From: a virus
Direction: 5' to 3' (one strand)
Length of the DNA stretch: 64,000 nucleotides
Virus record (IMG/VR): IMGVR_UViG_3300049216_000035
Span: 1-64,000 of that record
Shown piece by piece: positions 1,369 to 53,909 of this stretch. Each line of letters starts with the position of its first letter. Positions within the stretch are counted from its first letter, which is position 1. The position numbers and the translations under genes were made by a program. The notes beneath the pieces were generated by a model. It was not told the DNA's origin, did no database searches, and worked only from the letters and a program-made list of their open reading frames with translations.

Positions 1369-1935
1369 CTAGGCTGCGGGATCGTCTTTCGGACGTATCA
1401 AGAGCCTGTTTTGCAGGTCAACGGTTGCGCCCTTGCCACTAGCTGGTCCGCCAATCATAAACACCGCCTGTTTGCGATCCCCTGGCATCGACCCACCACG
1501 TTGACCTGGCCGACCATCGTGTCCATAATTGCCTGATCCTGGGCCACCCTCCGTCATCGACTCACGAACTTCGTAGTCTTCGATGTTGAGGTTCTTGGGA
1601 ATGAATCGCGTTGCACCTAGATTGTGGTGCTGTTCTTCAGGCTCTAGCTCGCCCCCGAGCGCGCGAACTTTGGCGTTCAGATCGTCCTGATCCTTAGCAT
1701 CAATGTTCGTAGCGATATGCATGCCGTTGAAGTCGGCATGTTGCCATACGCGACGATCATCGCCAGCCATGACTGACATGATCTTATCTCGCGTATCAGG
1801 TGAGTAGATAGAATCGTCACCTGGATAGCGCGGTTCAGCATCAGCTTTCATATCCCACGGTGCAACAGGTCCGCTATATTCTTCAGCCCCCGGCGCAGCT
1901 TTATCAGGCCTTATCTCCAGGTGCGCTTCCGCCAC
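1369..1935 (-). CDS. Linker-module protein with truncated P-loop kinase start
   Basis: 188 codons from a GTG at 1935. The frame is the same as the gene ending at 1951, separated only by a TAG and five codons, so the two may once have been one reading frame. Residues 1-128 are an uncharacterised domain. Residues 129-149 carry a full linker (GSGNYGHDGRPGQRGGS). Then AVFMIGGPASGKGATV follows, a Walker A P-loop of the zeta-toxin/kinase kind, but the protein stops 22 residues later, so no complete ATPase exists. It could be a decayed module, or the start of a kinase lost by frameshift or deletion. Expression and function are uncertain. Confidence 0.5.
   Translation of the reverse strand: MAEAHLEIRPDKAAPGAEEYSGPVAPWDMKADAEPRYPGDDSIYSPDTRDKIMSVMAGDDRRVWQHADFNGMHIATNIDAKDQDDLNAKVRALGGELEPEEQHHNLGATRFIPKNLNIEDYEVRESMTEGGPGSGNYGHDGRPGQRGGSMPGDRKQAVFMIGGPASGKGATVDLQNRLLIRPKDDPAA
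1489..1551 (-). repeat. Linker motif copy 5
   Basis: Codes for EGGPGSGNYGHDGRPGQRGGS, nearly identical to the copy at 3084-3149. It joins an unknown domain to a P-loop start. Confidence 0.8.
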
Positions 1936-1960
1936 GTTGCCCTGGTCGGCCTAAGTGGCT
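1916..1960 (-). repeat. Out-of-frame remnant of a linker motif
   Basis: In the -1 frame relative to the flanking genes, the DNA codes for SHLGRPGQRGGSAPG, the canonical second half of the linker. It begins exactly where the in-frame copy (ending GHAGRPG) stops. The two partial copies abut, so this looks like a motif-to-motif junction joined out of frame, or a damaged single region. Confidence 0.65.
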
Positions 1961-2661
1961 CCGGGTCTGCCTGCGTGACCGTAGTTTCCAGAACTAGCCG
2001 TGCCGACTTCAGTCAGATCGCCAGTCGTGACGTACCAGGTGTTGTTTTTGAGTTTGGGGACGTAGCTATCACCAGTCGCATCAGTGAGTGAATCAGCTAG
2101 AGCGTAAGCAGTAACATCATCTGAGATGCCGTTCTTGCCCATCTCGATAGCATCCGCGATCTGATCGGGGTCTTTGAGTAGATCGCTGGCTGCGTCAATA
2201 TCAGCCGAAGCTAAGGCATCGGAAAGACTTCTTACCCCGGCTGCGGCGTCATTGTTTAGCGCGTCTTCAAGCGTTTGATAGTCGTCAGGGTCAATCTCTT
2301 GCTTGAGGTATTCCATTGAAAGGCCACTATCGCTAAGAAAGCCTTCAACATCTGCCTTCGTCAGATCATAGTTCGTGAGTAGCGAATCTAGTACGTCACC
2401 ATATACGGCTGTTGCATCGCCTAAATCGAACTCACCAAAACCAATCGTTCCACGCCACGCCATAAGTTCGAAATCTTCAGGCGCGTCGTCTTCCATTTGA
2501 ACCATGTGGCGACAACGAGAACCACATTCGAAATCCCCCGGCTGCGGTACTTCTTCGCAGGAGTAAGGGTTATTTTGAACTGCATCGCTACAGCCGTCGC
2601 ATGAATCATCGTCATCTGGCCCGACGAACCAAGCGAGCAAGTCCTCAGCATTAACTATCAT
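1951..2661 (-). CDS. Head-morphogenesis-like protein with MuF-type cysteine cluster
   Basis: 236 residues. The N-terminus has a DDDDSCDGC segment, then P-x-PGDFECGSRCRH. This spacing resembles the cysteine/histidine cluster that ends Mu gpF-like (SPP1 gp7-like) minor head proteins. The normal helical MuF N-terminal part is absent here but could be residues 1-190 of the neighbouring 873-residue protein. Residues about 70-215 are acidic and unrecognised. The C-terminus ends in a linker copy, GHAGRPGAT, cut by TAG. It starts at ATG 2661 overlapping the upstream stop. Minor head protein is an inference. Confidence 0.55.
   Translation of the reverse strand: MIVNAEDLLAWFVGPDDDDSCDGCSDAVQNNPYSCEEVPQPGDFECGSRCRHMVQMEDDAPEDFELMAWRGTIGFGEFDLGDATAVYGDVLDSLLTNYDLTKADVEGFLSDSGLSMEYLKQEIDPDDYQTLEDALNNDAAAGVRSLSDALASADIDAASDLLKDPDQIADAIEMGKNGISDDVTAYALADSLTDATGDSYVPKLKNNTWYVTTGDLTEVGTASSGNYGHAGRPGAT
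1960..1992 (-). repeat. Linker motif copy 4 (truncated)
   Basis: Codes for SGNYGHAGRPG and then runs into a TAG at 1951-1953, losing the GGS half of the motif. Confidence 0.75.
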
Positions 2662-5279
2662 GCCGCACGACCTGCACGAGATTCAGATGGACGCAAATGA
2701 TCCTCGCGCGTGAAGTGTTCTTCACCGTTACCTAGATCATAGATCGCAATCTCATCACGCGCTTCGGCTTTATCGAGCGCGGTAGCTTTGTCGTTATGAA
2801 CTTCAGAAACATCGAGGTAGGTCTTGCCGTCGTTAACCCACCCGCCGATATAGTGGTTGGGCTGGCTGAGGATGTCTTTGTTTTCGTTGACGAACTTTTG
2901 CACGTCTTCGGGTTTCGCTTCGCCGTTAATAACGGTCTCGACCTTATCACCCGCCGCGTTACGGATTCCAGCTATAGCGAACCCACTACGCGGTCGAACA
3001 CCCGTCGTGCTGATCGTAATGCCGCCATCGCGCACAATGCTGCGAGCGATGATGTTCGGGACAATACTCGACCCACCACCAGCCGAACCACCACGCTGCC
3101 CAGGTCTACCGTCGTGACCGTAATTACCACTGCCTACTCCACCTTCGCGGTACTTTCTATGATTCTGCACTTCAGGGAAATAGCTATGGCGCATCTCATC
3201 AGCTATCTCAACCGGAAATGCGAAGGACTTCTGTTCCGGGAACGAGCGTTGCGAGACGGGCTTACCCTCGTTCTCAGGACTATGATTCACCCAAGCGTTC
3301 TGGGCTAGAGTTTCTGCCGCAAGTGCAGGCAGTGCATCCTTCGAGTACATGCGGCCGTGTGCTTGATAGGCTTTGAACTCGCCACGCTCGCCGAACGTAT
3401 TGTCGGGGAAGAAGTGGCCGTACATATCGTGAACGCCACGAAAGATCGTGTTCGCGGTTTGACCGTCTTCAACGACTTTTGAGAGCGGACTATCGTCAGG
3501 CAAGTCGTCTTTCGAGGATCGCACGAACAGCGTCTTCGTCTGTTGGACTGAACGACGCATATCGGGCTGATCTTTATATGGCTCACCTTTGTCTTCAAAG
3601 TCGAACTTATAGCCCGCCGCTTTGAGGTCGTGATACTGATCTAGCGTTTCTTTTATGAACGCCGCGTAGGCTTTCTGCGTTGCGGGATTCGTGGGGTCGT
3701 GTTTCGCGTCAGCGTATATCTGCGCGATCTTACGCAGCTTGTCGTTCAGATCACCAGTGCTACCAGAACCACCACGTTGACCTGGACGGTCAACATGATC
3801 CCAGTTCCCAGAGCCGCGACCGCCTTCACGCACCTTAATTCGCGGCTTGACTGTCTTGTACGTTACAGCTTCGTCAACGATCTTCTTCGATCCGAAGTCC
3901 ATATTGGAATGAAGAACCATGACGCGAGTATCACGATCAGCTTCCGCCATCGGTGCAGCCTTGAACGTGAACTCCCAATTATGAATGGAGCGGGATTCAG
4001 TGTACGGATTGTATGTTTCGCCGAGGTCTTCTTTGCTTGCGAGAATCCAATCATGCGTATTACCGCGTAGTACGGTTTCATGTTCGTCTTGCAGGTGTAG
4101 GATGCCGTTTCTGGGTTCCGTTAAATACGAGTCAAAGACATCGCTGCTGCGAACACCTTCAAAGTGTATAAGTGACCGACTGAACGACTTCGCTATATCT
4201 TCATCATCAGTTGCAGAGAGAAGCGGTCGGAATTGAACGCGGTCGCCCACAATGGCTTTTGCTAACGCCGCAGCTTCTACGTTGCCAATACCGCGAACAA
4301 GGCCAAGTGCATCATCCCCCATGCGCGTGAACTTCTCAAAGGCTTTGGCTTCCTTATCAGCCTGCTCGGCACACCACTGTTTGACTTGATCTTCGCTTCC
4401 GCCTAACGCTCGAATGTTGCGAAGTTCTGCATCGTACTGTGTTTGCAAGTCTTCCTTGCTACGATACGGCGTAACGAGATTGTCGAACCGATCTTTGCCA
4501 GCCGCCTCGTTCATCACCATTTGCATGAAGTGCGCTGTAGAGTCACGCGACGAGCCAATCCAGTGACCCATCAAATACGACTTGATTTCATCGCTCGTTA
4601 GCGTCTTAGCAGTCGAACCCTCACCGCTGGGCGCTGATCCGCCGACTTGACCAGGACGCCCGGCCTGATCGTGGTTGCCTGAGTTCTCGTTGCCGACTTC
4701 GACCATCGACTCTTTGACTTTATCCTGACGATCACGAGCTTTCACTGCCGTCTGAAAGTCAATCATCGCCTGGATGTAGGCGCGTTCGGCCGCTTTCCAC
4801 AAGAAGTGTCCGTACAGCTTGATACGCGCGATCCGCGCCTTGTCGGACATCCCAGCTTGCAGGTCTGGCTGCAGCGACGTGGTGAGATACTTCTCGTTTT
4901 CGGTCAGTATAGATTGGATGACAGACTGAGGGGCATTAGCGGGAGTGACGGGAGTATAAAACCCCAACCACCCGTTGGTTTTCAGATCGCTAAGACCGCG
5001 CTGATAGCCAGCCGCCACAGCTTGCGGAACGTAGAGTTGCGCCAAGTCCTTGAGTTGCGCGATGCGAGCAACGGGCTTCTTATCAGCACGAGCCGCTTTC
5101 TCAAGATCGCTCTGGTAGCGGCCAATCATCGCCTCAATCGTGAAGATGTGCTTCGAGTGGACGCGCTTCAAGACTGCGGATAGGTTCTTGGTAGTCTCCG
5201 CTCGGAGAGTTTCCGCCTTTTCAGCCGCCTCGATTAAGCGCGAAGCCTCCTCTAGCTTACTCGTCTCCGAGGAGTTCAT
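2658..5279 (-). CDS. Linker-joined multi-module head protein (polyvalent-protein-like)
   Basis: 873 residues in four modules separated by three glycine-rich linkers (residues 196-215, 484-505, 711-732). Module 1 (1-190) is helical and resembles the N-terminal part of MuF-type minor head proteins. Module 2 (216-480) has features of an ADP-ribosyltransferase fold: LVRG (R329), an LLSATD segment (S355) and IVDEAVTY (E470), in the R-S-E order of that superfamily; this is tentative. Module 3 (506-700) has conserved-looking HDMYGH, RGEFKAYQAHGRMYS and AETLAQNAWVN segments that I associate with large phage polyproteins, function unknown. Module 4 (733-873) has a C-terminal GGW..YLDVSE..EIAIYDL pattern that I recall from phage minor head proteins. 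The start at ATG 5279 overlaps the portal gene by 23 bp. Likely packaged in the capsid and perhaps delivered to the host (inference). Confidence 0.65.
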   Translation of the reverse strand: MNSSETSKLEEASRLIEAAEKAETLRAETTKNLSAVLKRVHSKHIFTIEAMIGRYQSDLEKAARADKKPVARIAQLKDLAQLYVPQAVAAGYQRGLSDLKTNGWLGFYTPVTPANAPQSVIQSILTENEKYLTTSLQPDLQAGMSDKARIARIKLYGHFLWKAAERAYIQAMIDFQTAVKARDRQDKVKESMVEVGNENSGNHDQAGRPGQVGGSAPSGEGSTAKTLTSDEIKSYLMGHWIGSSRDSTAHFMQMVMNEAAGKDRFDNLVTPYRSKEDLQTQYDAELRNIRALGGSEDQVKQWCAEQADKEAKAFEKFTRMGDDALGLVRGIGNVEAAALAKAIVGDRVQFRPLLSATDDEDIAKSFSRSLIHFEGVRSSDVFDSYLTEPRNGILHLQDEHETVLRGNTHDWILASKEDLGETYNPYTESRSIHNWEFTFKAAPMAEADRDTRVMVLHSNMDFGSKKIVDEAVTYKTVKPRIKVREGGRGSGNWDHVDRPGQRGGSGSTGDLNDKLRKIAQIYADAKHDPTNPATQKAYAAFIKETLDQYHDLKAAGYKFDFEDKGEPYKDQPDMRRSVQQTKTLFVRSSKDDLPDDSPLSKVVEDGQTANTIFRGVHDMYGHFFPDNTFGERGEFKAYQAHGRMYSKDALPALAAETLAQNAWVNHSPENEGKPVSQRSFPEQKSFAFPVEIADEMRHSYFPEVQNHRKYREGGVGSGNYGHDGRPGQRGGSAGGGSSIVPNIIARSIVRDGGITISTTGVRPRSGFAIAGIRNAAGDKVETVINGEAKPEDVQKFVNENKDILSQPNHYIGGWVNDGKTYLDVSEVHNDKATALDKAEARDEIAIYDLGNGEEHFTREDHLRPSESRAGRAA
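3084..3149 (-). repeat. Linker motif copy 3
   Basis: Codes for REGGVGSGNYGHDGRPGQRG plus GS, between modules 3 and 4 of the 873-residue protein. Confidence 0.85.
3765..3830 (-). repeat. Linker motif copy 2
   Basis: Codes for a variant with GSGNWDHVDRPGQRGGS between modules 2 and 3. Trp-Asp replaces Tyr-Gly and Val-Asp replaces Asp-Gly. Confidence 0.85.
4635..4694 (-). repeat. Linker motif copy 1
   Basis: Codes for ENSGNHDQAGRPGQVGGS between the helical head module and the ADP-ribosyltransferase-like module. Confidence 0.85.
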
Positions 5280-8200
5280 TGGCGGATTCCACGTTTTCGG
5301 TGATCGACGTAGCGAGTTTCTGAATTGTGTCCATAGCGGGGAGCATGGCTTCCTTGAGGAGATTCATGCGAATAGCACGTTGCAACGACTGCTTACTACG
5401 CATGATCGATGCTTTGCCTTCGTTCGCCATTGGGTTCTTTGCAGCCGAACTGTAGCCACTGGACGGAGCGGTTGGATCGGTATGGATCGGGTCCATCCCC
5501 GCCGCTTTGTTCGTTTTCGTGCTGCCACTGTTCGGCGCTTTACCGGGCGCTGCACTTGGGTTGGATTGTCCACCCGTTCCAGGTGCGCCGCCCTTGGCTT
5601 GTTCTGGCATGAGTTTGTCGCCAGCCACAGCCGGAGGAGTCGGCACGTTGACCATCTGGTTCTGAGGAGCAATCGGCTGCTTCGCGGCCATCTCGGCCTG
5701 CACGTCTTGCGCAATACTCGTCTGAGGAACATGCTCGTTGTCTTGAGTGTAGACGTGAGCGATGGACATCCCGAGTTGCGACTCTTCGAGGATCGTCTGC
5801 CACGAGTCTTCGAAGCTGTACGTCGTGATGTTGAGTTCCTTGGCTGCAATCTTCGCGGCCATAGACTTCGGCATCCACTGCATAGCTTCAGCGAGCGCGA
5901 GGTCTTTCAGCTTCGCACTGCGATCTTCTTGGGCAATAGACGGGAAGATGAACTCTAAGAACTCTTTGGCATAGTTCTGAGACTGTTTGAGAAGTTTTAT
6001 CCGCTTCTTCTGGTCGTCGTTAAGCGGTTTATCGTCGTCGTTGTTTCCGTTGACCGTCTTGTTGAGGTTCTGGTTTGGCTTCTGCTGCGGGTTGTTTGGA
6101 TCGGGGGCTGCTTCGTTGTCCTGATCCTGCGGCTGATTGCCAGCACGAAGCATAGCTTCGCGTAGCTCGAACCCATACTTTGCGGCGACTTCTTCGGGAG
6201 TCATACCCTTCTTGAAGTCGTGGATCGCGGCAGAGAACGGGCTTAGGTCGTGCTTGCCGACCCCGACGCCGTACTTGCCTTTGGAATCGCGAAGCTGATC
6301 GGGATGACCCTCGATCAGTTCAGACTCGGTAAGAGACTCACGCTGCTTGCCAGGCGGAGGTGCCTGTTGCGGGCCATTCTGACCCTGCTGAGGTGGTTGT
6401 TGCCCAGGTTGCGGCTGTTGGCCCGGCTGACCGGGTTGCGGCTGTCCTGGGCCAGCGTTTGGCCCTCCCGGACCCATCGGTGGCGCACCACCAACACCGT
6501 TGAGGCCGAGATTGATATTCGTCTTCGCGCCCGGCTTGTTCAATGCCGTCATGGCCTGCTTGTGCTGCATGCCAAGAGACTGCTTGTCCATCTCGTGACG
6601 GTGCTGCTGATCTTGGACAGACATCGAAAGCGTGGTGTCGTGCAGTTCTTGGGCGTTCTGCTGCTGTTGCTTCTGCTGATCCTGAGCGGCTTGATTCGCC
6701 TGATCCTGTTGGGCCTGTAAATCAGCTTGCAGCGCATCACGATCCGGCAGATCGGTATTGCTCTTAGCCAGCTTCGTTACCGAACGCGCATCAGGAAGGA
6801 TGTCGTTCAGTTTGAGGCGACCACCCTTGATTGCATTGTTAATGACGCGATTCGCCACTGCTTGGCAGAACGATTCAATAAGGCGCTGACGCCGCTCGAA
6901 CCGCTTTACGCCCGGTTCAGTAGCAGTGAGCGCACCGGACTTACCACCCTTACCACTATCTCCGATGAACTCTTTGGGTACGCCAAAACCGACCGCAATA
7001 AGATTGACCAAGGCCGAAATGTCGGACGTAGATTCGTTAGCCTTAATTTCAGAACCAACGGGCTTGAGTTCGAGATTCTTGTTGTGGACGAACGTCGATC
7101 CGGGTTTGTACGGATCGGGAAGGTTTAACTGGACACGCGAGATGTCTTCATTACCGCTGTTGACCGATACGTCCCACACGAACGCTGCTTCGAGTTGGCC
7201 TTTGACCACGCGCGCGTTCATAAGGTCTTGGAGGCGCTTCAACCACCCAAGAATCGAAAACAGGTCACTGCGACCGCGCTTCTCGTACTTCGAGACATTC
7301 AGTTTGATATGCAGGACGTTGTTCGCCGGAATATCCCGCAGAACGTAGCGCATCGAAGGGATGTTGCCCTTCGTATACATTTGATACGCAGTAGAATACT
7401 GCTGACGCATGTAGAAGACTTTTTGGATGTCTTCAGGATCGGTGATAATGTCCCAGATTGTGGACGGATCGATCATCCGATAGTCGGTGTAGCCTTTACC
7501 CAGCTTCGGAACGCTATCGATGAACTCAAGCATGAGTTCACCCGCCCACCACGCATCAGTCGCGATGTTCTCAAGGTCGGTGTAGAAGTCCGTGCGATCC
7601 ACGAACTCGCGCCAGACTTCATCGACTTCTTCGTTCGTAGACGTATGGTCGATACCGCGTCCGAGAACGAACGAGGTTTGTAGTTCGCAGAGTTGGTGCG
7701 CCACTGGGTTGTGGTTGTAAGCCTGAAATGCCTTACGGTGCATGTCAAGCATGTCGTACTGATACAACTGCTTAGACTCTGGTCCGCACATCATGGGGAT
7801 GTACTCTGCGTTAGGATCGCGACCGGAGCCATACGGCGGCATCGCCGTGCCTTGATATGCACTACCACCGCCGAAGTCGTCAGCGTATCCACCGCCGTCG
7901 AAGCCTTCGAGCAAACGATTAGCGGCGGCTTCGATTGCTTCTTCGCGAACGCTATCAGCTTCGCGAAGCGTTACGCCGTAGACATCGGGCGCTTTGTTCG
8001 ACTCGACAAGTTCTTGCCAGCGCGCTTGACCTTCACGCAGCCGCTTCTGAAGTTCCTCACGCGAATTGTACTTCTGAAGACGATACGTCCCGTCAGTACC
8101 AACTTCGAACAGCGTTGCTTGGATTTCCCAGTCAACCTCTTCACCGTTCGGCCCAATCTGTTTGTCAGAAAAGAAGTCGAACTTTCCGACAGTCGGTTCA

Positions 8201-8394
8201 AGAGCTTCCATGAACTCTTTGTCGGGCTGGTAGGGTTCGATAGGGGCTTTGGTCTGGAAAGACTGGGCGAACGTCGCAACTCTCGCTACGGCGCTCTCAG
8301 AGACTTTCTGTGGACTACCACTCTGGTCAACGACAAGAGCCACAGCACTCGACTGTGGCGCGGGGGGTCGTTTTCTAGCTCTAGTCCGTCCCAT
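5257..8394 (-). CDS. Portal protein with long C-terminal extension
   Basis: 1045 residues, about twice the usual portal length. Residues about 190-570 have the portal pattern: a loop with PMMCGPESKQLYQYDM, a helical stretch FQAYNHNPVAHQLCE, WAGELMLEF, MIDPSTIWDI, HIKLNVSKYEKRGRSD (stem and wing) and GVPKEFIGDSG. Residues about 580-690 are Q/P/G-rich and disordered. Residues 696-709 carry GHPDQLRDSKGKYG, a variant linker used in other phage head proteins. The C-terminal 330 residues are low-complexity and helical, unlike simple portals. It forms the dodecameric DNA channel and the terminase docking site. It starts 8 bp after the terminase stop and overlaps the module protein downstream. Confidence 0.85.
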   Translation of the reverse strand: MGRTRARKRPPAPQSSAVALVVDQSGSPQKVSESAVARVATFAQSFQTKAPIEPYQPDKEFMEALEPTVGKFDFFSDKQIGPNGEEVDWEIQATLFEVGTDGTYRLQKYNSREELQKRLREGQARWQELVESNKAPDVYGVTLREADSVREEAIEAAANRLLEGFDGGGYADDFGGGSAYQGTAMPPYGSGRDPNAEYIPMMCGPESKQLYQYDMLDMHRKAFQAYNHNPVAHQLCELQTSFVLGRGIDHTSTNEEVDEVWREFVDRTDFYTDLENIATDAWWAGELMLEFIDSVPKLGKGYTDYRMIDPSTIWDIITDPEDIQKVFYMRQQYSTAYQMYTKGNIPSMRYVLRDIPANNVLHIKLNVSKYEKRGRSDLFSILGWLKRLQDLMNARVVKGQLEAAFVWDVSVNSGNEDISRVQLNLPDPYKPGSTFVHNKNLELKPVGSEIKANESTSDISALVNLIAVGFGVPKEFIGDSGKGGKSGALTATEPGVKRFERRQRLIESFCQAVANRVINNAIKGGRLKLNDILPDARSVTKLAKSNTDLPDRDALQADLQAQQDQANQAAQDQQKQQQQNAQELHDTTLSMSVQDQQHRHEMDKQSLGMQHKQAMTALNKPGAKTNINLGLNGVGGAPPMGPGGPNAGPGQPQPGQPGQQPQPGQQPPQQGQNGPQQAPPPGKQRESLTESELIEGHPDQLRDSKGKYGVGVGKHDLSPFSAAIHDFKKGMTPEEVAAKYGFELREAMLRAGNQPQDQDNEAAPDPNNPQQKPNQNLNKTVNGNNDDDKPLNDDQKKRIKLLKQSQNYAKEFLEFIFPSIAQEDRSAKLKDLALAEAMQWMPKSMAAKIAAKELNITTYSFEDSWQTILEESQLGMSIAHVYTQDNEHVPQTSIAQDVQAEMAAKQPIAPQNQMVNVPTPPAVAGDKLMPEQAKGGAPGTGGQSNPSAAPGKAPNSGSTKTNKAAGMDPIHTDPTAPSSGYSSAAKNPMANEGKASIMRSKQSLQRAIRMNLLKEAMLPAMDTIQKLATSITENVESANELLGDE
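6268..6309 (-). repeat. Variant linker motif in portal
   Basis: Codes for GHPDQLRDSKGKYG (residues 696-709). It shares the G/H-x-x-R-x-x-G layout with the SGN-GRPG linkers and occurs at the junction between the portal core and its extension. Confidence 0.5.
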
Positions 8395-8402: not shown

Positions 8403-10022
8403 TTATACGCGATCAAAGCGACGGTAGTTAGCAACCCGAGTCTGGAAACTAGAGCCAATCGTTATGGCTTTGGGGCCACCGCCCTTGAACTGGGACATCG
8501 CGATGGCACTGTAGCTGTTGGCATGAGCATAGTGGTCCGCCCCCAGCTTCTTCCAAATCGCCTTCTGAAGTCCAGTATCTTCGTCCGTGTCGATGACCTT
8601 CGCCATCGCGACAACCTGCTCGATAAACTCTTTGCGGGTGTCGTCTGGCATGCGCGGCAGGATCAGATCGCGGCGCGTAATCTCTTCGTACATGGCATCG
8701 AGCGATTCCGTTCGATTGACGTTAACCGCCCAGTCCTTGAACTCGTCCTGAGTGTTCTCACCCGGCCGAATCCACTTGTACGAGCCCTTCTGTGTGTCAA
8801 CATAGTAGCACAAGTAGACACGGCCACCGAACCGCTTCGCAAAGTCACGGGCTGAGTGCTGATTCGGCAGGCCGTCGATCACGCATATATTCACATCATA
8901 TTCGCGCATGTAGCGATCTAGCTCGAAGAACGTCGCCACCTTGCCGACAAACAGAACGCGCGGTCGGCCAGTGATCTTATCGTTCTGGCGGATGACGATG
9001 TGCAATTCTGATCCACGTTGGTCAACGCCCATGTAGCTGCGCTCGCCCTGGATCATCGCCATGTCTGTGCCTTGATCCATGCACGATTCAACCATGTCTG
9101 CCGTGACGCGCATGTCGCTCGAAATCCACGGAATACCGAGGTCCGAACGCATGAACTCTTCACGACCGCGACCGCTCTCGTACTTGTAGAGCATTTCCGA
9201 TAGATCGGCGACGCCGCCATACAGCCCGCAAAGGTGATAGCCGCGAACGCGCTCAGTCTTCTTTTCTGGTTTCCAGAAGCCGTAGCATTTGTCGAGTTCG
9301 CTATCGCACTTGCGACATACGAGGATCGCCTTCGTCTCGCTGATACGCTTGATAATGTCGGGGAATTGAAACTCGCAGATGTTGTGCGTCTCGCACTTCT
9401 TGCACACGAGATTCCAATAGCGTTTATCCGACAGACCGAACTCGTAGTCGATCCCATAACCATCGAACGTCGGCGTCGATAGCATATACTTCCACTTCAG
9501 ACTGGAGTGGAGCAGCCGCTTCTCGGCGAGTTCTTTCTGATCGGGTGTGACTTCATCGAGTTCGTCAAAGACGAGCATGTCGCCAGGAACAGACTTCAAG
9601 CGAATGTTCGAACGCATGCCTCGGAAATACAAAAAGCCGCGCCCAATCTGACGCAAGCCTACGGAGTCAACATCCTTCGAACCCACGAGTCCTGAAATGT
9701 AGGGACTGTCTTTGATGATCGGCGCAACGCGAGACTTACTAAATTCTCTCACGTCCTCATCGGTCGGGAAATAGTACAAAACATTTTTCCCTAATTTATC
9801 ACAGACGTATAAGGACTTAATCATCCCCAATACCGAAGCACCCATTTGTGCCGATTTTTCAACCACTTGGTATGGGTGAATGTCAGCGTACATATCAATC
9901 AAATAGGCGTGGTCTTCGAAAGAGAACGGCTTGCCGTCCACCTTCACATATTCCTGGGCATACCCGATAAGTGAGGAGTCTGCAATCGCTTGAGCAATCG
10001 CCAGTTCTTCTTTGCTTGCCAT
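8403..10022 (-). CDS. terL: Large terminase subunit (GpA-like)
   Basis: 539 residues from ATG 10022, which overlaps the stop of the upstream gene (TAATG). ATPase: a variant Walker A at residues 55-63 (EKSAQMGAS) and Walker B VFDELDE at 151-157. A cysteine cluster (VCKKC, then VCRKCDSELDKC) around 210-250 is typical of GpA-type terminases. The nuclease part has MGVDQRGSELHIVI with the first acidic residue and CVIDGLPN with a later one. It drives DNA packaging through the portal and cuts the concatemer. The order small terminase - endonuclease VII - large terminase - portal suggests a homing insertion between the two terminase genes. Confidence 0.9.
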   Translation of the reverse strand: MASKEELAIAQAIADSSLIGYAQEYVKVDGKPFSFEDHAYLIDMYADIHPYQVVEKSAQMGASVLGMIKSLYVCDKLGKNVLYYFPTDEDVREFSKSRVAPIIKDSPYISGLVGSKDVDSVGLRQIGRGFLYFRGMRSNIRLKSVPGDMLVFDELDEVTPDQKELAEKRLLHSSLKWKYMLSTPTFDGYGIDYEFGLSDKRYWNLVCKKCETHNICEFQFPDIIKRISETKAILVCRKCDSELDKCYGFWKPEKKTERVRGYHLCGLYGGVADLSEMLYKYESGRGREEFMRSDLGIPWISSDMRVTADMVESCMDQGTDMAMIQGERSYMGVDQRGSELHIVIRQNDKITGRPRVLFVGKVATFFELDRYMREYDVNICVIDGLPNQHSARDFAKRFGGRVYLCYYVDTQKGSYKWIRPGENTQDEFKDWAVNVNRTESLDAMYEEITRRDLILPRMPDDTRKEFIEQVVAMAKVIDTDEDTGLQKAIWKKLGADHYAHANSYSAIAMSQFKGGGPKAITIGSSFQTRVANYRRFDRV

Positions 10023-10432
10023 TAAGCTGCCACCGATTTTCGCGTTGCGAGATAATAGAACGCAGCCGCAACTATAGCGCGACGATCCTTGAACATACCC
10101 AGTCCCGCGTTGCAGTTGAAACATAGCATGCCACGAACCTGACCTGTCTCGTGATCGTGGTCAACGAGTAGCTTCTGGCCTTCTTCGGGAACCATCGCAC
10201 AGATGTTGCACTTTGAATGATCGAGTGAGAGGTATTGTTCGCGCGTTAAGCCGTACTTGCGCTTGACGTGTCCCCAAAAGTCAAGTTCTTTCTTACAAAG
10301 CCCGCAAGTGTTCCAGGTATATCGACCAAAAAGTGCTTCGTCCACATACGCTTCACAACGCGAACACCACCGCAAGCCATCGTGCGGTGGTTTACGTTCT
10401 GATATAGGTGGACGACCTATCTTAGTCGCCAC
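10022..10432 (-). CDS. Endonuclease VII-type nuclease (homing-like)
   Basis: 136 residues from a GTG. Two CxxC pairs (WCSRC; TCGLCKKEL), then CNIC, LVDHDHETGQVRGMLC and FNCNAGLGMFKD, the signature of the recombination endonuclease VII family (DHDH plus GLLC-x-x-CN). T4 gp49 resolves branched DNA, but small versions beside terminase genes also behave as free-standing homing nucleases. It is wedged between the terminase subunit genes with overlaps at both ends. It could resolve branches before packaging, or be a selfish insertion. Confidence 0.85.
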   Translation of the reverse strand: MATKIGRPPISERKPPHDGLRWCSRCEAYVDEALFGRYTWNTCGLCKKELDFWGHVKRKYGLTREQYLSLDHSKCNICAMVPEEGQKLLVDHDHETGQVRGMLCFNCNAGLGMFKDRRAIVAAAFYYLATRKSVAA

Positions 10433-27925: not shown

Positions 27926-28169
27926 ATGGCTACATTCGTAATCCAGGTCCTGGAGCCCGGCAAGAAGAACCGCAAGATGTATGCGGGCGGGGGGTCAATT
28001 AACGACCAAGTGGATTCACGCCAAGCAATATCGCGTGACCGACCCGCAATCGCAGTTTGAGGTCGATTCCCTCGTCTCGTGGATGAACGATCACAATCCT
28101 GACTTCGAGTTTCGAACCAAAGACATCACCGGAACCGGGCACGATATGTACCGCAACGAAGCGGCCTAG
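27926..28169 (+). pseudogene. Small protein gene broken at a G6 run
   Basis: Strong ribosome site (AAAGGAG) and ATG 27926 begin MATFVIQVLEPGKKNRKMYA, then GGGGGG at 27989-27994 shifts the frame into early termination. In the next frame the protein clearly continues as QLTTKWIHAKQYRVTDPQSQ and on to MYRNEAA at 28169. Removing one G restores an 80-residue protein. This is a sequencing error, a true mutation, or a programmed slip. Function unknown. Confidence 0.6.
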
Positions 28170-28936
28170 ATCGTCGGGTCGGGAGCGACTGCTTTACGCG
28201 GTCGCTTTGCCACTTTCTTTGGCTCAGGACGCACGGGAGACTTGCCCAGGGTAGGAATACTCGTAATCTCGTCTACGAAGCCCTCAGCGAGAGCTTCTTC
28301 GGCTGAGACGTAGAAGTCTTTGCCGTCCACGAGCTTTTGATAATACGAGATGGGGCGACCCGTTCGCGCCGACAGAACCTCGTAAATCTGCTTCTCCAGC
28401 TTCTTGGAGAACAACGCATCGCGGAGATGGTTGCTCGTCGCATCCGCCGACTTACCGTACTGCGATTCGTGCATCATCATGCCGCCCTGCGGATCGATGG
28501 ATCGGTGATCGCAGAACTGCACGATGTCGAAGGCGGCCGACAGGGCAAACCCCGTGACGTGCGCGTTCACGACGCGGCCTTCTCGCCGCATCCGCGAGAT
28601 AGCACCGATGACCGCGAGGCCGAGCCCAACGTCGCCGCCGACCGACGAGATTTCAAGAGTAATGGGCTTGTCAGGCGGGAGTACGAGGTGAACCCGCTCT
28701 AACCGCGCCAGCAGTGAGGAGCCCATCGTTTGGCCGTCGTTGCTCGGGTCTTCTTCGTCCAGCATACCGACGAACGCGACGATGCCCTTGTCTTCGTTCG
28801 AGGGAGTAAACGCTTCTTCTGGTAGAAGCGCCACGAGCTTCGCCGCGAGCGAACGATCTATGTCGGCGCTCTCAGCCGTCATCGTCTGGATGAACAGGTC
28901 GATCAGCTTGGCGCGGGTCGAGAGTTCCTCAGCCAT
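28166..28936 (-). CDS. ClpP-like serine protease
   Basis: 256 residues from ATG 28936. ISSVGGDVGLGLAVIGAI matches the ClpP oxyanion-loop region. Nucleophile candidate S133 in GFALSAAFD, catalytic His156 in GGMMMHES, and the Asp near VDGKDFYVSAEEALAEGFVDEI. The ClpP fold is often used as a phage capsid protease, but here the gene sits with metallophosphoesterase and HNH genes, and a separate prohead protease exists at 52 kb. The C-terminus is basic (KKVAKRPRKA). Confidence 0.8.
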   Translation of the reverse strand: MAEELSTRAKLIDLFIQTMTAESADIDRSLAAKLVALLPEEAFTPSNEDKGIVAFVGMLDEEDPSNDGQTMGSSLLARLERVHLVLPPDKPITLEISSVGGDVGLGLAVIGAISRMRREGRVVNAHVTGFALSAAFDIVQFCDHRSIDPQGGMMMHESQYGKSADATSNHLRDALFSKKLEKQIYEVLSARTGRPISYYQKLVDGKDFYVSAEEALAEGFVDEITSIPTLGKSPVRPEPKKVAKRPRKAVAPDPTI

Positions 28937-28937
28937 T

Positions 28938-29486
28938 TTATGCCGCCATCTCCGTTCTGTCAAAAAGGCTGAACTGCGTTCCGACCGCAATCGTGTGCCG
29001 CTTTGCGGAATTACAGCTTATGCACAAGCCTTGAATGTTGTGGATGAAATTATTGCCTCCGCGCGCAAGCGGAATTATGTGATCGCGTTGTAGCTTTGCT
29101 TTCACGCCGCACCGGGCGCAACAGCCATTCTGTGTTGCGATGACGGCCTGCCATTCTTGCAACGAATGTGAACCAAAAGCGCCAAGTCGCGCAGCCCGGC
29201 GACGCGCACAAATCGCCCGCCATTCATCCGGGTGCGATCTGATCCAGGCTTGGTTTCGGGCACGTTCTTTATCGCGATTAGTGGCGTATTCGGCTTTTCG
29301 TTTTATCTGATACCTTGACTTATGCTTACGATAGTGTCGGGCACACTTCGCGCGTGATTGTTCACGAAACGTATCAGTCTTACTGTAGATCGTTCTGCGT
29401 CTATGACTATCGCAAGTTTTGCAAAACGCTTCTCCCGCGAGTTTTATGTGCCCGCATTTTCGTGGATGACCTACGGGTATCATCAC
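28938..29486 (-). CDS. HNH homing endonuclease
   Basis: 182 residues, ATG overlapping the upstream stop (ATGA). N-terminal zinc knuckle (FCKTCDSHRRR), a basic middle, then CCARCGVKAKLQRDHIIPLA and LCISCNSAKR, the HNH active site with two CxxC pairs. Inserted between metallophosphoesterase and ClpP genes. Probably mobile. Confidence 0.85.
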   Translation of the reverse strand: MMIPVGHPRKCGHIKLAGEAFCKTCDSHRRRTIYSKTDTFREQSRAKCARHYRKHKSRYQIKRKAEYATNRDKERARNQAWIRSHPDEWRAICARRRAARLGAFGSHSLQEWQAVIATQNGCCARCGVKAKLQRDHIIPLARGGNNFIHNIQGLCISCNSAKRHTIAVGTQFSLFDRTEMAA

Positions 29487-31701: not shown

Positions 31702-32406
31702 TTATCCTTGAAGTGCAAGTTTGTAAGAGCGGATTAGAGTGCGGAGCGCGTTTCCGCAGATCGTCGCCGAGTCAGCCGTCACTGGTCCCGGTACGAACGC
31801 TGCGAGGTCCCAACGCTCTACATCGCCTATGGGAGACGGACCATAGGGCGTATATGCGGCTGGCGTACCCGGAAGGTTCGCAGCCTCGGCGTGAGTCAGC
31901 ACGTTGACTTCGCCGTAGAACGGGTCAGTATCTAATGATAATCCCGAGATGTCGATGCCGTACTTCGTCGCGACCGCAGCCGCCGCAGCGCAAAGCCACG
32001 TCAGCCCTTCGACCGTTACGCCGTCCGGGCCAAAGTTGTCTGCCGTTGCGCCGTCCATGCCATCGAGCGCGATCCCGACACCGCCCGTATTGCGGTGATA
32101 GGTATGTTCGGCGTAGCCGTTAGAATCGAACGTGGATCGGGCGTTCTTGCGAACGTCCGTTGAATGATTGATCGCGTAGTGGCCGTTCGATTCCGTTATG
32201 ACGAAGTTGTAGGCCGCATCGACGCAGCCCATCGCCTGGACTGACCAGTGCAAGTAGATGCGCGTCAGATCGGGATCGGCGTAGTCTACGTTGGATCGAT
32301 TCCCCATGTTCACATCGGGGAGCGTAGCCATGAACGCCTTCGCCGCTGCGAGGATCGCAGGATCGACGGGGGCTTTCGGATCGAACGCCCCTAATGGAAA
32401 ACTCAT
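31702..32406 (-). CDS. N-acetylmuramoyl-L-alanine amidase endolysin
   Basis: 234 residues. Amidase_2/PGRP-like: zinc ligands H53 (IYLHWS), H172 (NVLTHAEA) and D200 (ERWDL), and a substrate-groove region YNFVITESNGHYA. No separate wall-binding domain and no signal peptide, so it needs a holin. Cleaves the amide bond between MurNAc and the peptide. Ends before membrane genes; ATGA overlap with the GIY-YIG gene upstream. Confidence 0.9.
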   Translation of the reverse strand: MSFPLGAFDPKAPVDPAILAAAKAFMATLPDVNMGNRSNVDYADPDLTRIYLHWSVQAMGCVDAAYNFVITESNGHYAINHSTDVRKNARSTFDSNGYAEHTYHRNTGGVGIALDGMDGATADNFGPDGVTVEGLTWLCAAAAAVATKYGIDISGLSLDTDPFYGEVNVLTHAEAANLPGTPAAYTPYGPSPIGDVERWDLAAFVPGPVTADSATICGNALRTLIRSYKLALQG

Positions 32407-32936
32407 GCCGCCAACCTCGCTTTGACGGATTCACTGATCCGCGCTCGCGTTACGTCTGAAACGGCATGACCTTTCAGAGTCGCTGCGATCCTGGCACGGT
32501 ATTCTGGAGTGCTGCGTTTGCGAGCGGCTTCGGCCATTCTCTCACGGGTTTCCGCAGACTTAGGTCGGCGCGATGACGGCTTCGATACTCCGCGTTGGGC
32601 AAGTGCGATCTTCGCACGGCGCTCGGCGGGCATCGGGCCGTGCTTTACCCCGAGGCAATTTCCGGCTATCTTCGCCTCGTTGAACGCGGGCCGGAGTGTG
32701 TCCAAGAATAACTGCTCACGCGCCAGTAGGTCGGGACTTGCACACGTCTCAAGAATGACAAAGCCGAACGCATCGGGACCATACTTGTCCCAGGCGCGTT
32801 GGAGGAACGCCGAGTGATGAAGCCCCTTACGCAGATCGCGCTTATGCCGCAGCCAGCGATCTTCGACGCTAACGCTCGATCCGACGTACTGCCGACCTGT
32901 TGCGAGATGCTGTATCGCGTAAATGCCGCTAGTTTT
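32403..32936 (-). CDS. GIY-YIG homing endonuclease with NUMOD3 repeats
   Basis: 177 residues from ATG 32936. SGIYAIQHLATGRQYVGSSV is the GIY-YIG core; R28 region and a Glu (ILETC) follow. The C-terminal half holds NUMOD3-like DNA-binding repeats (SAETRERMAEAARKR, SDVTRARISESVKAR). Inserted between two cell-wall enzyme genes. Confidence 0.9.
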   Translation of the reverse strand, partial: KTSGIYAIQHLATGRQYVGSSVSVEDRWLRHKRDLRKGLHHSAFLQRAWDKYGPDAFGFVILETCASPDLLAREQLFLDTLRPAFNEAKIAGNCLGVKHGPMPAERRAKIALAQRGVSKPSSRRPKSAETRERMAEAARKRSTPEYRARIAATLKGHAVSDVTRARISESVKARLAA

Positions 32937-32941
32937 CATAT

Positions 32942-33466
32942 CTAGGGCCACACAACGTCCAATTTGACGACTCCGCCCTGGGCCTGAACCCATTTAACGA
33001 AAGGTACAAAGATTTGTTCATTGTCGTGGTTTTGCAGGCGCAAGCAACCGAATGTGTACTCAAACCCTTGGTACATCGCGAACGGGTCGGGAAGATCGGA
33101 GCCGCCCCCGTGGATGCCGATACCGCCGCGTCCGTGGATCGCGAACGAGTGCTGATCGGAATCACCGAGCGGGGTGAACCAGCAGCCGTAGGCCGGATCG
33201 TCGCTGTTGTTGAGATGGACCTGCCCGTCCGTAAGGCGCGTAGCGCACGGTTCCGGGGCCATGACGGCGTAGTTCGTGCCCGGCGGGCACTTGCAGTCGT
33301 GGCCGTAGACATCCTCGCCCTGGGTGATCGTAGAGTCGTCTACGCCCACGTCATGGCAAGGGACAGTATGAAGCAGACCGTCCGGCTTCCCGAGGGCGGC
33401 CGCTCCCTTGATGAACATCTTCAAGACGCGCGAAGCGCCGTTGAACACCAAGTGTCCTTCGATCAT
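32942..33466 (-). CDS. L,D-transpeptidase (YkuD-like) catalytic protein
   Basis: 174 residues. The C-terminal half shows the YkuD signature: FAIHGRGGIGIHGGG (H111/H119) and YTFGCLRLQNHDNEQIF with Cys141 as the nucleophile in the GC-(L/I)-R-(L/M) motif. There is no signal peptide or LysM domain. Bacterial members make 3-3 crosslinks; in a phage lysis cluster it more likely cleaves or modifies peptide stems. Family call fairly secure; the reaction is inferred. Confidence 0.7.
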   Translation of the reverse strand: MIEGHLVFNGASRVLKMFIKGAAALGKPDGLLHTVPCHDVGVDDSTITQGEDVYGHDCKCPPGTNYAVMAPEPCATRLTDGQVHLNNSDDPAYGCWFTPLGDSDQHSFAIHGRGGIGIHGGGSDLPDPFAMYQGFEYTFGCLRLQNHDNEQIFVPFVKWVQAQGGVVKLDVVWP

Positions 33467-49554: not shown

Positions 49555-49770
49555 TTAGCTCGGAGTCGTGACCGTAGCCGCGATAGCGACGAAGACCTTC
49601 TGATTCTGAGAAACAAGGTTGCCGCTAATGATAATCGCGTTGCCAGCAGCCGCAGCCGAGTTCATCGCCGTGGCGTCGGTCTGCGCCGCGCTCAGGGTCG
49701 AATACTCAGCTACCAGGTCTTCGCCGAACTGGGTCCGATACTGGATGAAACCACCCGATGCGGTAGCCAT
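49555..49770 (-). CDS. Small head protein (71 aa)
   Basis: 71 residues (MATASGGFIQYRTQFGED), alanine-rich middle, beta end (VFVAIAATVTTPS). Overlaps the GIY-YIG gene by 1 bp. Might be a head decoration or tail adaptor fragment. Confidence 0.55.
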   Translation of the reverse strand: MATASGGFIQYRTQFGEDLVAEYSTLSAAQTDATAMNSAAAAGNAIIISGNLVSQNQKVFVAIAATVTTPS

Positions 49771-50405
49771 TACGCTGCTTTCCTTACTGCCCAGCGCGTC
49801 AGTTGTGCGTCGCGCATCTTCTGACGAGTCTCTGGGCTGTGTTTCTTGCCTCGCAACGCGACGCTATTGGCGGCACCAATCTTCGCGCGATGTTCGGGCG
49901 TGAGTTTCGCACCCTTTCGCCCCTTCACCGCAGCCGCGACCATGATCGCCTTCTGCTCGGGGGTGTACTGGTACGGATTAGCCAGCTTCGATGCCCTGAT
50001 CTTCTCTTTTTTCTCTGTTGAACAAGGAATGCGTCGCTTATCGCCAGCCTTCTTTTGTGCCGCTGCGGAGTTGACTTTACGCCGTGCTATCGTCTCCGGG
50101 GAGAGATGGAACAACGGCGAATCAGCCGACTTAGTAGCATTGTATACTGGCTCTAATTTGTTAATCCAGTATTGTTCAAGGGCTACACGCTTTTCCGGCT
50201 CGCACAGTTCGATCACAAAGAAGTCGAACTGATCTTCACCATACTTTGCCCACGCGGCCCGCAGATGCGGGGTAACGTGCCCACCTGTTCTGAGTCGGTG
50301 CAAGTGCTGACGCCACCGGGAGTGGATGTCGATACTCGACCCTATGTACATGTTGCTGTTAATCTTGTTCTGGATTCCGTAGACTCCAGATAGTCTTTTT
50401 GACGC
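49770..50405 (-). CDS. GIY-YIG homing endonuclease
   Basis: 211 residues from ATG 50405. LSGVYGIQNKINSNMYIGSS is the GIY-YIG core; WRQHLHRLRTGGH and WAKYGEDQFDFFVIELCEP supply the Arg/His and the catalytic Glu. C-terminal NUMOD-like repeats (TPEQKAIMVAAAVKGRKGA; LTPEHRAKIGAANSVALRG). Placed between capsid and connector genes; 15-bp repeats flank its upstream side. Confidence 0.9.
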   Translation of the reverse strand, partial: ASKRLSGVYGIQNKINSNMYIGSSIDIHSRWRQHLHRLRTGGHVTPHLRAAWAKYGEDQFDFFVIELCEPEKRVALEQYWINKLEPVYNATKSADSPLFHLSPETIARRKVNSAAAQKKAGDKRRIPCSTEKKEKIRASKLANPYQYTPEQKAIMVAAAVKGRKGAKLTPEHRAKIGAANSVALRGKKHSPETRQKMRDAQLTRWAVRKAA

Positions 50406-50429
50406 CATATACCTAGTATAACTCATACT

Positions 50430-50471
50430 AGAGTGTGACAGTTACCCTACATAAGCAGAGTGTGACAGTTA
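50430..50471. repeat. 15-bp direct repeat at capsid gene 3' end
   Basis: AGAGTGTGACAGTTA at 50430-50444 and again at 50457-50471; the second includes the capsid gene stop codon (50469). A CTAGTAT-AACTC-ATACTAG palindrome adjoins at 50412-50430. A duplication of the capsid end produced by insertion of the GIY-YIG gene is one reading. Confidence 0.65.
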
Positions 50472-51617
50472 TATGCCATTTCCGGCGTATAGGTAACGGT
50501 ACTCGATGACCGCCGTCGCGTAGCGACGACGAACACGGTAGCGATACTCGTCCTTTTCGAAGGACGCGCCAGCGTTGCGGGCTTCCTGGAGCAGTTCGAG
50601 CGGATCGCGATCCTGCCACACGATGGACGTTTTCGGTTCCATCAGGTACCAGTAACCGTTGCCCGAGCCGTCAACAGGCAGCCATCGGCTGATCTTCAGC
50701 GTGTAGAGGCCCTGAAGGGGATTGATCGTCCCAGACCAACCCGTCGCGCCACCGCTGAAGAAGGCCGTCTGCGTCGCGCCCGTACCATTGGTCGTGGTAT
50801 TCGGAACGCTCGGTTGCAGCGTCGAGTTCAACAGCTTCGCAGCGTTGAACTTTTCAGCCGGAGCCGTGAGCAGAACGCCCGGCTTGACCATGATCTTGTT
50901 CCCGAGGGGATCGACCATGTTCATCAGAGCGATGTCGGCAGCTTCGAGGCCAGCCTGCGAGAGCTTCGCATACGAGGTCGGACGGTTGCCGATGGCAGTC
51001 GTGTACGACGTGTTCGCGACGCCCGTGATACCACGACCCTGGGTCGTGATCTTGAAGACATCGACGCCCATAACGTCCGCTTCTTCTTTGTAGCGGAGGC
51101 GCTGGCCGAGGCCCGTCGCGCGCTGTTCGATCTGGCCCGTCTGATCGTCATCAATCAGTTCGCGCTCGACCGTGAACATGCGACCGACCTTCTTGTTGAC
51201 GACTTCCACGTCAAGGCCGGACACACGCGAGTCCTCGAACTTGCCGCCGAGCGGCACGTCACGCGGAATCTCGACGCCGAACATCGGGGCGTACCATTCT
51301 TGGCGATTGCTCGACGGACGCGCCGACACGAGGTCGGTATACACGAAGTCGTCAACGCTCTTGTACGCATCGAACATGAAGTGCTGGACGCCGTAGCGCA
51401 GGAGTTGGCCGAAGGCCGTCTCCGACGTGGCTTCCGAGAGCTTCGCTTCAGCTTCCTGAAGGTTCTTGTTGAGACGGCCGAAGCTAAAGTTGTCGGACTC
51501 TAAGAGTTCCTCATACTTCTTCGGATCGACTTTCGCCGAGCGGCGGATCGATTCACCGAGGCGCGTTTGCTGCGCTTCGAGTGCGATTGCCTGACGCTCG
51601 ATCAGAGACTTTCTCAT
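50469..51617 (-). CDS. Major capsid protein
   Basis: 382 residues. A helical N-terminus (possible delta-like region), AFGQLLRYGVQHFMFDAYKS, and a beta-rich domain. The middle carries GVEIPRDVPLGGKFEDS and VNKKVGRMFTVERELID, and the C-terminal WLPVDGSGNGYWYLMEPKTS and YRYRVRRRYATAVIEYRYLY resemble HK97-fold P-domain strands. Position after the prohead protease and decoration genes, plus length, support the call. Confidence 0.82.
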   Translation of the reverse strand: MRKSLIERQAIALEAQQTRLGESIRRSAKVDPKKYEELLESDNFSFGRLNKNLQEAEAKLSEATSETAFGQLLRYGVQHFMFDAYKSVDDFVYTDLVSARPSSNRQEWYAPMFGVEIPRDVPLGGKFEDSRVSGLDVEVVNKKVGRMFTVERELIDDDQTGQIEQRATGLGQRLRYKEEADVMGVDVFKITTQGRGITGVANTSYTTAIGNRPTSYAKLSQAGLEAADIALMNMVDPLGNKIMVKPGVLLTAPAEKFNAAKLLNSTLQPSVPNTTTNGTGATQTAFFSGGATGWSGTINPLQGLYTLKISRWLPVDGSGNGYWYLMEPKTSIVWQDRDPLELLQEARNAGASFEKDEYRYRVRRRYATAVIEYRYLYAGNGI

Positions 51618-52148: not shown

Positions 52149-53819
52149 TTAGACTCCCATTCCCGCGAAGATGATCGATTCGTTGGCACGAGCATCGCTC
52201 TCGCGAATCTGGACCTGGCGACCGGGGTTGCCGACGATCTTCTTCGTGCCGATTTCGGCAACGTAGTTGACCTCAGTCTCGATCAGAGAGTCCATCTCCT
52301 CAGCCGTCTTGCCAACAAGCGACGGGAGAAGTTTGGTGGCCGCAGCCGCCGGGAGATTGCTCTCCTTCAGCTTGTTCTTGGCCGTCTCGATAGACTCGCG
52401 CATCTCATTTTTGGTGCGCTCTGCCTTGAGTTCTTTCTTGAGGCGCGCTACTTCGGCCGCAGCTTCCGCGCGAGCTTCCGTGAGCGCCGCTTGGAAAGCC
52501 GAACTATTGCGCGAGCGAACATCGCTCTCTTTAGTTTTAGATTCCGAAGTCTGCTCGGACTCATCGTCCTCGTCATCATCGTCATCTTGCGGGGCTTGTT
52601 CGCCCTTCGCAACGAACGGCGGGGCTTTCTTCCCACCGAAATTGGCCGTGCCAGCTTCCTTAGCTTTCGCCTCGGACATGCTCTCGGAACACTCGTCGCA
52701 CTTGCAGTCGTCCTTGTGCGCTTCTTTCATGTCCGTGCCGCTGGTGAGAGCTTCAACGAGCGTTGCGAGGTCTTCCGGGTCAACCGAACCCTCTTTGCTC
52801 TGAGCCTTCAGCCGCTTGGCAGTCTCCACGAGTTTCTTGTCCATCGTAGCTCCCTTATCGCTTTCGACTAGTGCGAGGAATCTGCCGCCCCGCGCGGGTT
52901 TCGTGACCAGATCGGCGCTGAAGGCGTCCGTAATCGAGTTCACATAGTTGACGGACATGCCGCCCACATCTTTAGGTGACACGTCGCCGTCTGCATTGAT
53001 GCTGATACCAGCGTAGACTTTGTTTGGAAATTGCTTCGAATACGCAATCGCCTCTTTGATGAGGCCAACCGCCCAGTCTTGTCCGTCCTGAATCTTGAGC
53101 TTGGCAGCGATAGCCGTCTTGCCGTTGTTCTGGACGATGTGCGAATCGAAGTAGTAACCGAACAGATCGCGCACCGAGCGTTCGGGACGATCAGTCTCTT
53201 CGAACGCGCTCGGATGATCCGCATACGCTTGCGCGCCATCGAACACTTTGTTGGCGACCGCTTTGATGAGCGTGTCTGCCGCGTAATAGTGCTTGTCGCG
53301 CTTGTTGCCCAGACCTTCCTCAATGATAATCACGCTCGCGGTGCGAGTCGCATCATCGTAGGTGCCTTCGATCAGACGAGGATTGAAGACCAGCGTTTCA
53401 CGGAGGTTCTGAACCGACTCTGTTATCGCCGACTCTTTACTCTTCGTGCCGAGCATCTTGTGCGCTCGTACTTTGATCTTCTTCTTATCTTCTGCCGAGA
53501 GGTTCTTGCCTCGCGATAGCATCTGGAGCGCCAGCCGTGCATGCTTCTTGTCCGGCATCGGGAACCGACCACCGGGAAGAGTCTCAGTACGCTGACGTAC
53601 CTTTTTGCCTACCGCCTCTTCGATGCTGTTGTCGGTCGGATGAGTCGTCTCAGGAGAGATCGTATCCGTCCGGCGAGTCTTGGCATCGAAGGGTCCGGGC
53701 ACTTTTTCAGTTTTCAAAGGCAGATAGGCCCTCGACTTACCAAGTCGGGGCTGTGCACCGTCCCGGAAGAGTTGTCCGGCCGCAGTTCCAGACTGCGCCT
53801 GACGCGAGGCGACCATCAT
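52149..53819 (-). CDS. Prohead protease-scaffold fusion
   Basis: 556 residues from ATG 53819 (preceded by AAGGGTGAG; an upstream start at 53846 lacks a site). Protease domain about 130-335 (full-frame numbering): AQAYADHPS with the catalytic His, GISINADGDVS with the likely Ser, and NSITDAFSADLVTKPA. The C-terminal half has a CKCDECSES cysteine motif, then a long helical coiled scaffold (RAEAAAEVARLKKELKAERT) and a tail. Protease-scaffold fusions build and mature the procapsid. Confidence 0.82.
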   Translation of the reverse strand: MMVASRQAQSGTAAGQLFRDGAQPRLGKSRAYLPLKTEKVPGPFDAKTRRTDTISPETTHPTDNSIEEAVGKKVRQRTETLPGGRFPMPDKKHARLALQMLSRGKNLSAEDKKKIKVRAHKMLGTKSKESAITESVQNLRETLVFNPRLIEGTYDDATRTASVIIIEEGLGNKRDKHYYAADTLIKAVANKVFDGAQAYADHPSAFEETDRPERSVRDLFGYYFDSHIVQNNGKTAIAAKLKIQDGQDWAVGLIKEAIAYSKQFPNKVYAGISINADGDVSPKDVGGMSVNYVNSITDAFSADLVTKPARGGRFLALVESDKGATMDKKLVETAKRLKAQSKEGSVDPEDLATLVEALTSGTDMKEAHKDDCKCDECSESMSEAKAKEAGTANFGGKKAPPFVAKGEQAPQDDDDDEDDESEQTSESKTKESDVRSRNSSAFQAALTEARAEAAAEVARLKKELKAERTKNEMRESIETAKNKLKESNLPAAAATKLLPSLVGKTAEEMDSLIETEVNYVAEIGTKKIVGNPGRQVQIRESDARANESIIFAGMGV

Positions 53820-53909
53820 TCTCACCCTTATCCGCCACGAAGTCACATTATTGTGGGGATAACGATAGAAACGGCAGGCTTAAATAAGAGTAGATAAGAA
53901 GATGGGCGC

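Follow-up and report, generated by a model that had tools for sequence, protein, structure and literature searches.

The analysed window comprises 64,000 nucleotides of a 74.5-kb virus record (IMGVR_UViG_3300049216_000035). Behind the terminase and portal genes, three consecutive open reading frames of 873, 236 and 188 aa on the minus strand contain four full copies of a linker and one copy broken by a frameshift. Three full copies lie in the 873-aa ORF (2658-5279) and one in the 188-aa ORF; the broken copy is at the end of the 236-aa ORF. The first-pass annotation had counted at least five good copies and a variant. The recurring linker is real, with four full copies and a broken one, and the variant near 6309 is a portal segment of a different linker type. 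The core pattern carries about 45 bits, and thus a chance occurrence is excluded. The features are listed below, with the predicted cut marked by a slash.

8403-10124, minus: terminase large subunit (PHROG 675, 7e-106; PF05876)
5257-8394, minus: portal protein with a long C-terminal extension (PF05136, 1e-8; PHROG 21, 2e-22)
6241-6318, minus: second linker type, portal tail, ELIE/GHPDQLRDSKGKYGVGVG
4710-5279, minus: N-terminal helical segment of the 873-aa protein, ahead of linker A
4635-4682, minus: linker A (4635-4709 with predicted cut site), SMVE/VGNENSGNHDQAGRPGQVGGS
3837-4634, minus: module 2, probable ADP-ribosyltransferase (weak; PHROG 832, T4 Alt type, E=0.0094)
3765-3812, minus: linker B (3762-3836 with predicted cut site), KVRE/GGRGSGNWDHVDRPGQRGGS
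3156-3761, minus: module 3, conserved HDxxGH...E...H domain, no assigned function (PHROG 3170)
3084-3131, minus: linker C (3081-3155 with predicted cut site), KYRE/GGVGSGNYGHDGRPGQRGGS
2661-3080, minus: module 4, small conserved phage domain (PHROG 17808)
1951-2661, minus: 236-aa ORF with a cysteine-rich, minor-head-like N-terminus
1925-1992, minus: linker D, broken (1925-2019 with predicted cut site), DLTE/VGTASSGNYGHAGRPG
1561-1935, minus: module 5, no assigned function, now behind the broken linker
1489-1536, minus: linker E (1486-1560 with predicted cut site), SMTE/GGPGSGNYGHDGRPGQRGGS
1369-1488, minus: truncated start of a zeta-toxin-like P-loop kinase (PF06414, E=0.16, below the cut-off)
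50469-51617, minus: probable major capsid protein (PHROG 371/133)
52149-53846, minus: head maturation protease with a scaffold-like tail (PHROG 15531, 2e-13)
28166-28990, minus: second head maturation protease-like gene, Clp-type (PHROG 94, 3e-21)

Two linker copies in the window are exact (SGNYGHDGRPGQRGGS). In linker D the second half (LGRPGQRGGSAPGD) is in another frame, and HxGRPG is doubled across the two frames; this resembles the fusion of two linkers out of register, and the frameshift may be an assembly error. A segment similar to the second linker type, SNPDQPRNERGEWTTSG, precedes a module in the related phage L140. The head protease of the window contains a linker-like segment, KAKE/AGTANFGGKKAPP (52581-52655), between the protease domain and the tail.

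The domains around the linkers were partly reassigned. The helical head part and the minor-head domain had been described as following linkers, whereas the helical segment lies ahead of the first linker and the cysteine-rich domain ahead of its own. The ART-like module, read in the window from the PHROG 832 match and from R-S-E-like motifs seen by eye, is weakly supported; an ART module is well supported in the sister phage L139. The AlphaFold model of module 2 (pLDDT 34) was unusable. Viral stretches with the module 3 domain number at least 588, and the domain often lies around residue 1110 of a protein about 2100 aa long. Only one of 80 loci with relatives of module 3 (L144-L223), on the contig of L050, has the linker, and thus the linker is not a part of this domain. 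In gp107 of mycobacteriophage Sebata, modules 3 and 4 are fused without a linker. The P-loop start noted after linker E is present, but it covers only about the first 25 residues of the zeta-toxin-like kinase (positions 13-38 of the 199-position profile) and breaks off 40 aa past the linker. Tails this short are rare (4 of the 149 ORFs whose stop was seen), which makes this probably the relic of a decayed module. The MuF domain PF04233 had no match in any linker protein of the window, a PDB sequence search gave no match, and the window modules can be only tentatively called effectors.

The window contains two protease-like head genes of different types (28166-28990 and 52149-53846), and its capsid and portal genes are far apart. 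Two ORFs (49770-50426 and 32403-32993), one of them adjoining the capsid gene, resemble GIY-YIG endonucleases by eye.

Modules, carriers and cargo

In the sister phage L139 the portal protein is 96% identical to that of the window, and the helical part is 97.5% identical at the DNA level. An extra linker and a PARP-type ADP-ribosyltransferase (PF00644, 1.9e-7) lie there between the portal and the helical part, and are absent from the window. A module consisting of a linker and an ADP-ribosyltransferase has evidently been gained or lost within 97%-identical DNA. In the more distant L140 (portal identity 54%), a linker with an ART-like segment comes first, then the helical part, and then another linker with a metalloprotease-like module; the ART-like segment and the first metalloprotease were read by eye. 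Next come the cysteine-rich gene and two more metalloprotease-like modules, each with a linker. The helical segment is found in both phages behind a linker and an ART module. The L140 homologue of the 236-aa ORF runs on through linkers into two metalloprotease-like modules. Modules 3 and 4, in this order in the window, have the opposite order in L081.

The full consensus of the linker, GGxGSGNFGHxGRPGxVGGS, is longer than the pattern used for scanning (a DNA pattern for GN[FY]GHxGRPGxxGG). The linker is widespread among uncultured phages, with at least 119 stretches from the scan of IMG/VR. Bacteria and archaea (85,000 genomes, 257 Gb) gave only 15 stretches, all in ORFs of like make-up. Linker-bearing loci also include prophages of Desulfosporosinus and Lachnospiraceae (L125, L127). 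One linker ORF, on a Nitrosotalea MAG contig (L136), is binned with an ammonia-oxidising archaeon, which is either a binning error or an archaeal virus. Taken together, the window and the viral loci among the matches listed contain 263 linkers in 190 ORFs, with a maximum of five in one ORF. The S, N, H, R and P of the linker are conserved at 92-100%. Outside the search pattern, GG, G and S at positions -4, -3, -1 and 0 are conserved at 95-99%, and S at +15 at 97%. In an alignment of 95 linker ORFs the linker is essentially the sole conserved block.

The linker as a BLAST query had no match in annotated phages, for which low-complexity masking is the probable cause; absence from cultured phages is not implied. 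Three linker-rich proteins had few and remote matches in cultured phages, with no linker in the two regions inspected. A text search of the open-access literature did not find the linker sequence.

Among the matches listed, the 343 segments flanking linkers form 162 clusters, so the flanking domains do vary across phage genomes, a check suggested by the first-pass annotation. In this set, more than 100 unrelated cargo families are attached through the linker to a portal, protease, MuF or short leader segment, and one portal family of 22 ORFs has 17 different first-cargo clusters. These counts support the idea that one linker is reused to append swappable cargo, as do the module gain or loss in L139 and the reversed order in L081. 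Carriers matched by Pfam include portals, DUF2213, S78 and XkdF proteases, and MuF; the MuF domain (PF04233) was found in 9 of 145 scanned linker ORFs outside the window. Cargo matches include ADP-ribosyltransferases, zeta toxin, topoisomerase IB, PBECR3, Ntox50, NUDIX, 2'-5' RNA ligase/Acb1-like proteins, acetyltransferases and a lethal-factor-like metallopeptidase. The portal polypeptide of L119 (537-4337) contains, behind linkers, a 2H phosphoesterase with weak similarity to the anti-CBASS protein Acb1 and a complete zeta toxin. The linker heads cargo and is rarely terminal: of the 149 ORFs whose stop was seen, 145 extend at least 60 aa (mean 311) past their last linker.

The linker genes of the window are situated just downstream of the portal. 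In 13 of 17 portal_3 records, all linkers are downstream of the portal, on its strand and within 11 kb, mostly ahead of the protease, and two further records of the 17 fit this placement if the record is circularly permuted. Proteases co-occurring with the linker are of the DUF2213 type in 16 of 42 records, S78 in five and Clp-type in the window. A single protease family accounting for the linker was rejected, as several families co-occur with it.

The residues ahead of the glycines

Agreement within genomes was analyzed for 218 linkers from 90 genomes by comparing same-genome pairs with shuffled ones. Same-genome pairs agree in the residue just ahead of GG (position -5) in 80% of cases versus 16% for shuffled ones (z=28), although related sequences are not independent here, and the featureless flanks (6-11% identity at positions -9 to -24 versus about 6-7% expected) are the sole control for phylogeny. 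Agreement is also raised at positions -7 (z=9.6) and -8 (z=7.3), and weakly at -6 (z=2.6). By this residue the genomes fall into classes with D, L or A, K, N, and E. All 12 linkers of L010 have N at -5 despite differing upstream sequences; some linkers in the set deviate at this position. The peaks at -5, -7 and -8 resemble the P1, P3 and P4 positions of a protease site, a reading based on the combination of an invariant P1' side with phage-specific P1, P3 and P4. A shorter linker type, xxA/GGPGSGPQSGG, occurs three times in a DUF2213 protease protein (L233, 858-2609). It has GGPGSG and P1 in common with the main linker and is without NFGHxGRPG; the second half of the linker may be exchangeable.

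The predicted cut motif appears to be common to the linkers and the major capsid protein of the same phage in two clades, A and B, whose loci were sampled by capsid protein and not by linker, and in the window. Where the variable N-terminus of the clade B capsid proteins meets the conserved fold, the sequence reads [LF]R[AST][LA]/[SA]PL or close, with [RK]x[LA]/ in 43 of 57 proteins. In all 37 nearby linkers P1 is L or A, and [RK]x[LA] is present in 29 of these 37 versus 21 of 181 linkers of other genomes; for example, the capsid site LRTL/SPL is paired with the linker RTL/GG. Clade A capsid proteins have TRFD/S, and P1 of the linkers is D in 17 of 20 cases, as in L347 with RRFD, RRFD and RRMD (e.g. 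RRFD/GG); the contrast between the clades is in essence one phylogenetic contrast. A scan for linker-to-capsid matches in 14 genomes gave p=0.006 by label permutation, and p about 0.05 and 0.2 within the two groups of these genomes. IRTL/KMSQ, a conserved segment in the interior of the capsid protein, is likewise matched by the linker weight matrix. In the window, hydrophobic-x-E/ is present in all five linkers. The capsid protein contains four sites of the form hydrophobic-x-E/[SAGV] in its first 62 residues (at 22, 40, 55 and 62) and a single one in the other 320; two of its LxE/[SA] sites are conserved in four relatives. A cut after GG, as in double-glycine leaders, is disfavoured, since the matching capsid sites lack GG.

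Candidate function and alternatives

Judging from the conserved linker, the unrelated cargo, the gain and loss of modules, the position behind the portal, the P1, P3 and P4 preference and the capsid motif, the linker, placed ahead of each cargo module, most probably acts as a cut site of the prohead protease, with the cargo being freed in the head. We hold this reading with good confidence; that cutting happens, which protease is responsible, the packaging and the delivery into the host are inferred. The four residues ahead of the glycines would be the cut site for the capsid maturation protease of the phage, and the downstream consensus a universal exposed tether. On entry into the prohead, the cargo would be attached to a portal, protease, MuF-like or helical head protein, or preceded by a short leader. 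Every junction would then be cut at P4-P3-x-P1/GG by the protease that trims the capsid protein, giving individual enzymes capped with a linker, whose small size would allow them to exit together with the DNA. As each module would bring its own cut site, modules could be gained, lost, reordered and fused into polyproteins. A cleavage signal, a flexible spacer and a recombination target had all been proposed from the window; the P1 statistics and the capsid motif now clearly favour the first. The cut, earlier placed at GRPG or GGS, is likely ahead of GGxGS.

Protease docking or loading in the head would be our guess for the invariant NFGHxGRPG half. More tentatively, the entire consensus possibly serves as a shared tag that marks cargo for cutting, a functional docking, loading or ejection signal common to phage groups with unrelated proteases. 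The proteins behind it would then be virion-delivered effectors.

An uncut targeting or loading tag to which a phage-specific head partner would bind, similar to encapsulins, is unlikely, although the linker does head each cargo and has a near-invariant core. The leaders of different cargo proteins are also alike (score of at least 40) in 21% of within-genome pairs versus 0.9% of between-genome pairs, in some genomes only, as such a tag might predict. However, the phage-specific four-residue P4-P1 pattern recurs at capsid boundaries that have no GGxGSGNFGH core, and there is no need for a loading tag to recur at all junctions within a polypeptide. One leader family, MKFSRNPxSGxxExYTDEGVYxGxxxTMGD, was observed ahead of the linker and unrelated cargo in L009, L011, L016, L084, L103 and L111.

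The gain, loss and reordering of modules, as well as the look of linker D, would also fit a DNA recombination target driving module shuffling. However, the third bases of the invariant glycines are the same in 33% of same-genome pairs versus 31% predicted from the glycine codons of these genomes. Hence it is the protein that is conserved and not copied DNA, and the linkers do not exchange DNA often. A recombination site as the main role was rejected, since third codon positions are near-randomised; it is very improbable, and homologous recombination could only be a by-product. Least probable is that the linker is no more than a flexible spacer, maintained by habit or mutation bias. The Gly/Ser-rich tract behind the core might speak for such a spacer, but this role was rejected because of the near-invariant S, N, H, R and P, the conserved residues outside the search pattern and the phage-specific P1.

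If the linker is indeed a protease site, it would tag head-packaged effectors of uncultured phages with no need to know their function, and would read out the capsid-protease specificity of each phage directly from sequence. It would also provide a mechanism for mixing and matching injected enzymes, such as zeta toxins, ADP-ribosyltransferases and 2H phosphoesterases, and explain how portal-fused cargo may be released.

Relation to known systems

In phages T4 and SPN3US, the prohead protease cleaves targeting propeptides off head proteins at x-x-E sites, and SPN3US gp53 and gp54 have an identical propeptide start at the N-termini of diverged bodies (PMC5694885). The linker proteins are similar in that a short N-terminal segment precedes unrelated internal proteins and seems to follow the cut rule of the capsid protein; the predicted window rule, hydrophobic-x-E, resembles that of T4. 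On the other hand, a long near-invariant linker downstream of the cut site, its repetition in polyproteins and its position behind portal and protease domains differ from T4 and SPN3US, as does the variation of P1 between phages (D, L, K, N, A, E).

The MuF polymorphic toxins of temperate phages (PMC5576092) also have a variable C-terminal effector on a head protein encoded beside the portal. In contrast to them, the carriers here include portals, proteases and short leaders, with several cargo units per protein; the text of that paper mentions no linker, motif or cleavage. Several effector domains per phage polypeptide, as in L119, are typical of the polyvalent proteins of phages and plasmids, and the domain sets overlap (ART-PolyVal, PBECR, 2H, metallopeptidases; PMC5512222). 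A word search found no linker described in that paper, where autoproteolysis by embedded peptidases is proposed, rather than a head-protease site at each junction. The pre-toxin element of bacterial polymorphic toxins (PMC3482391) is likewise a conserved element ahead of an exchangeable toxin domain, but here delivery would be by the phage head (as proposed), and the element is repeated between modules. Thus the principle is known from T4 propeptides, MuF toxins and polyvalent effectors; what appears to be new is the universal linker, its repetition in polyproteins and the phage-specific P1.
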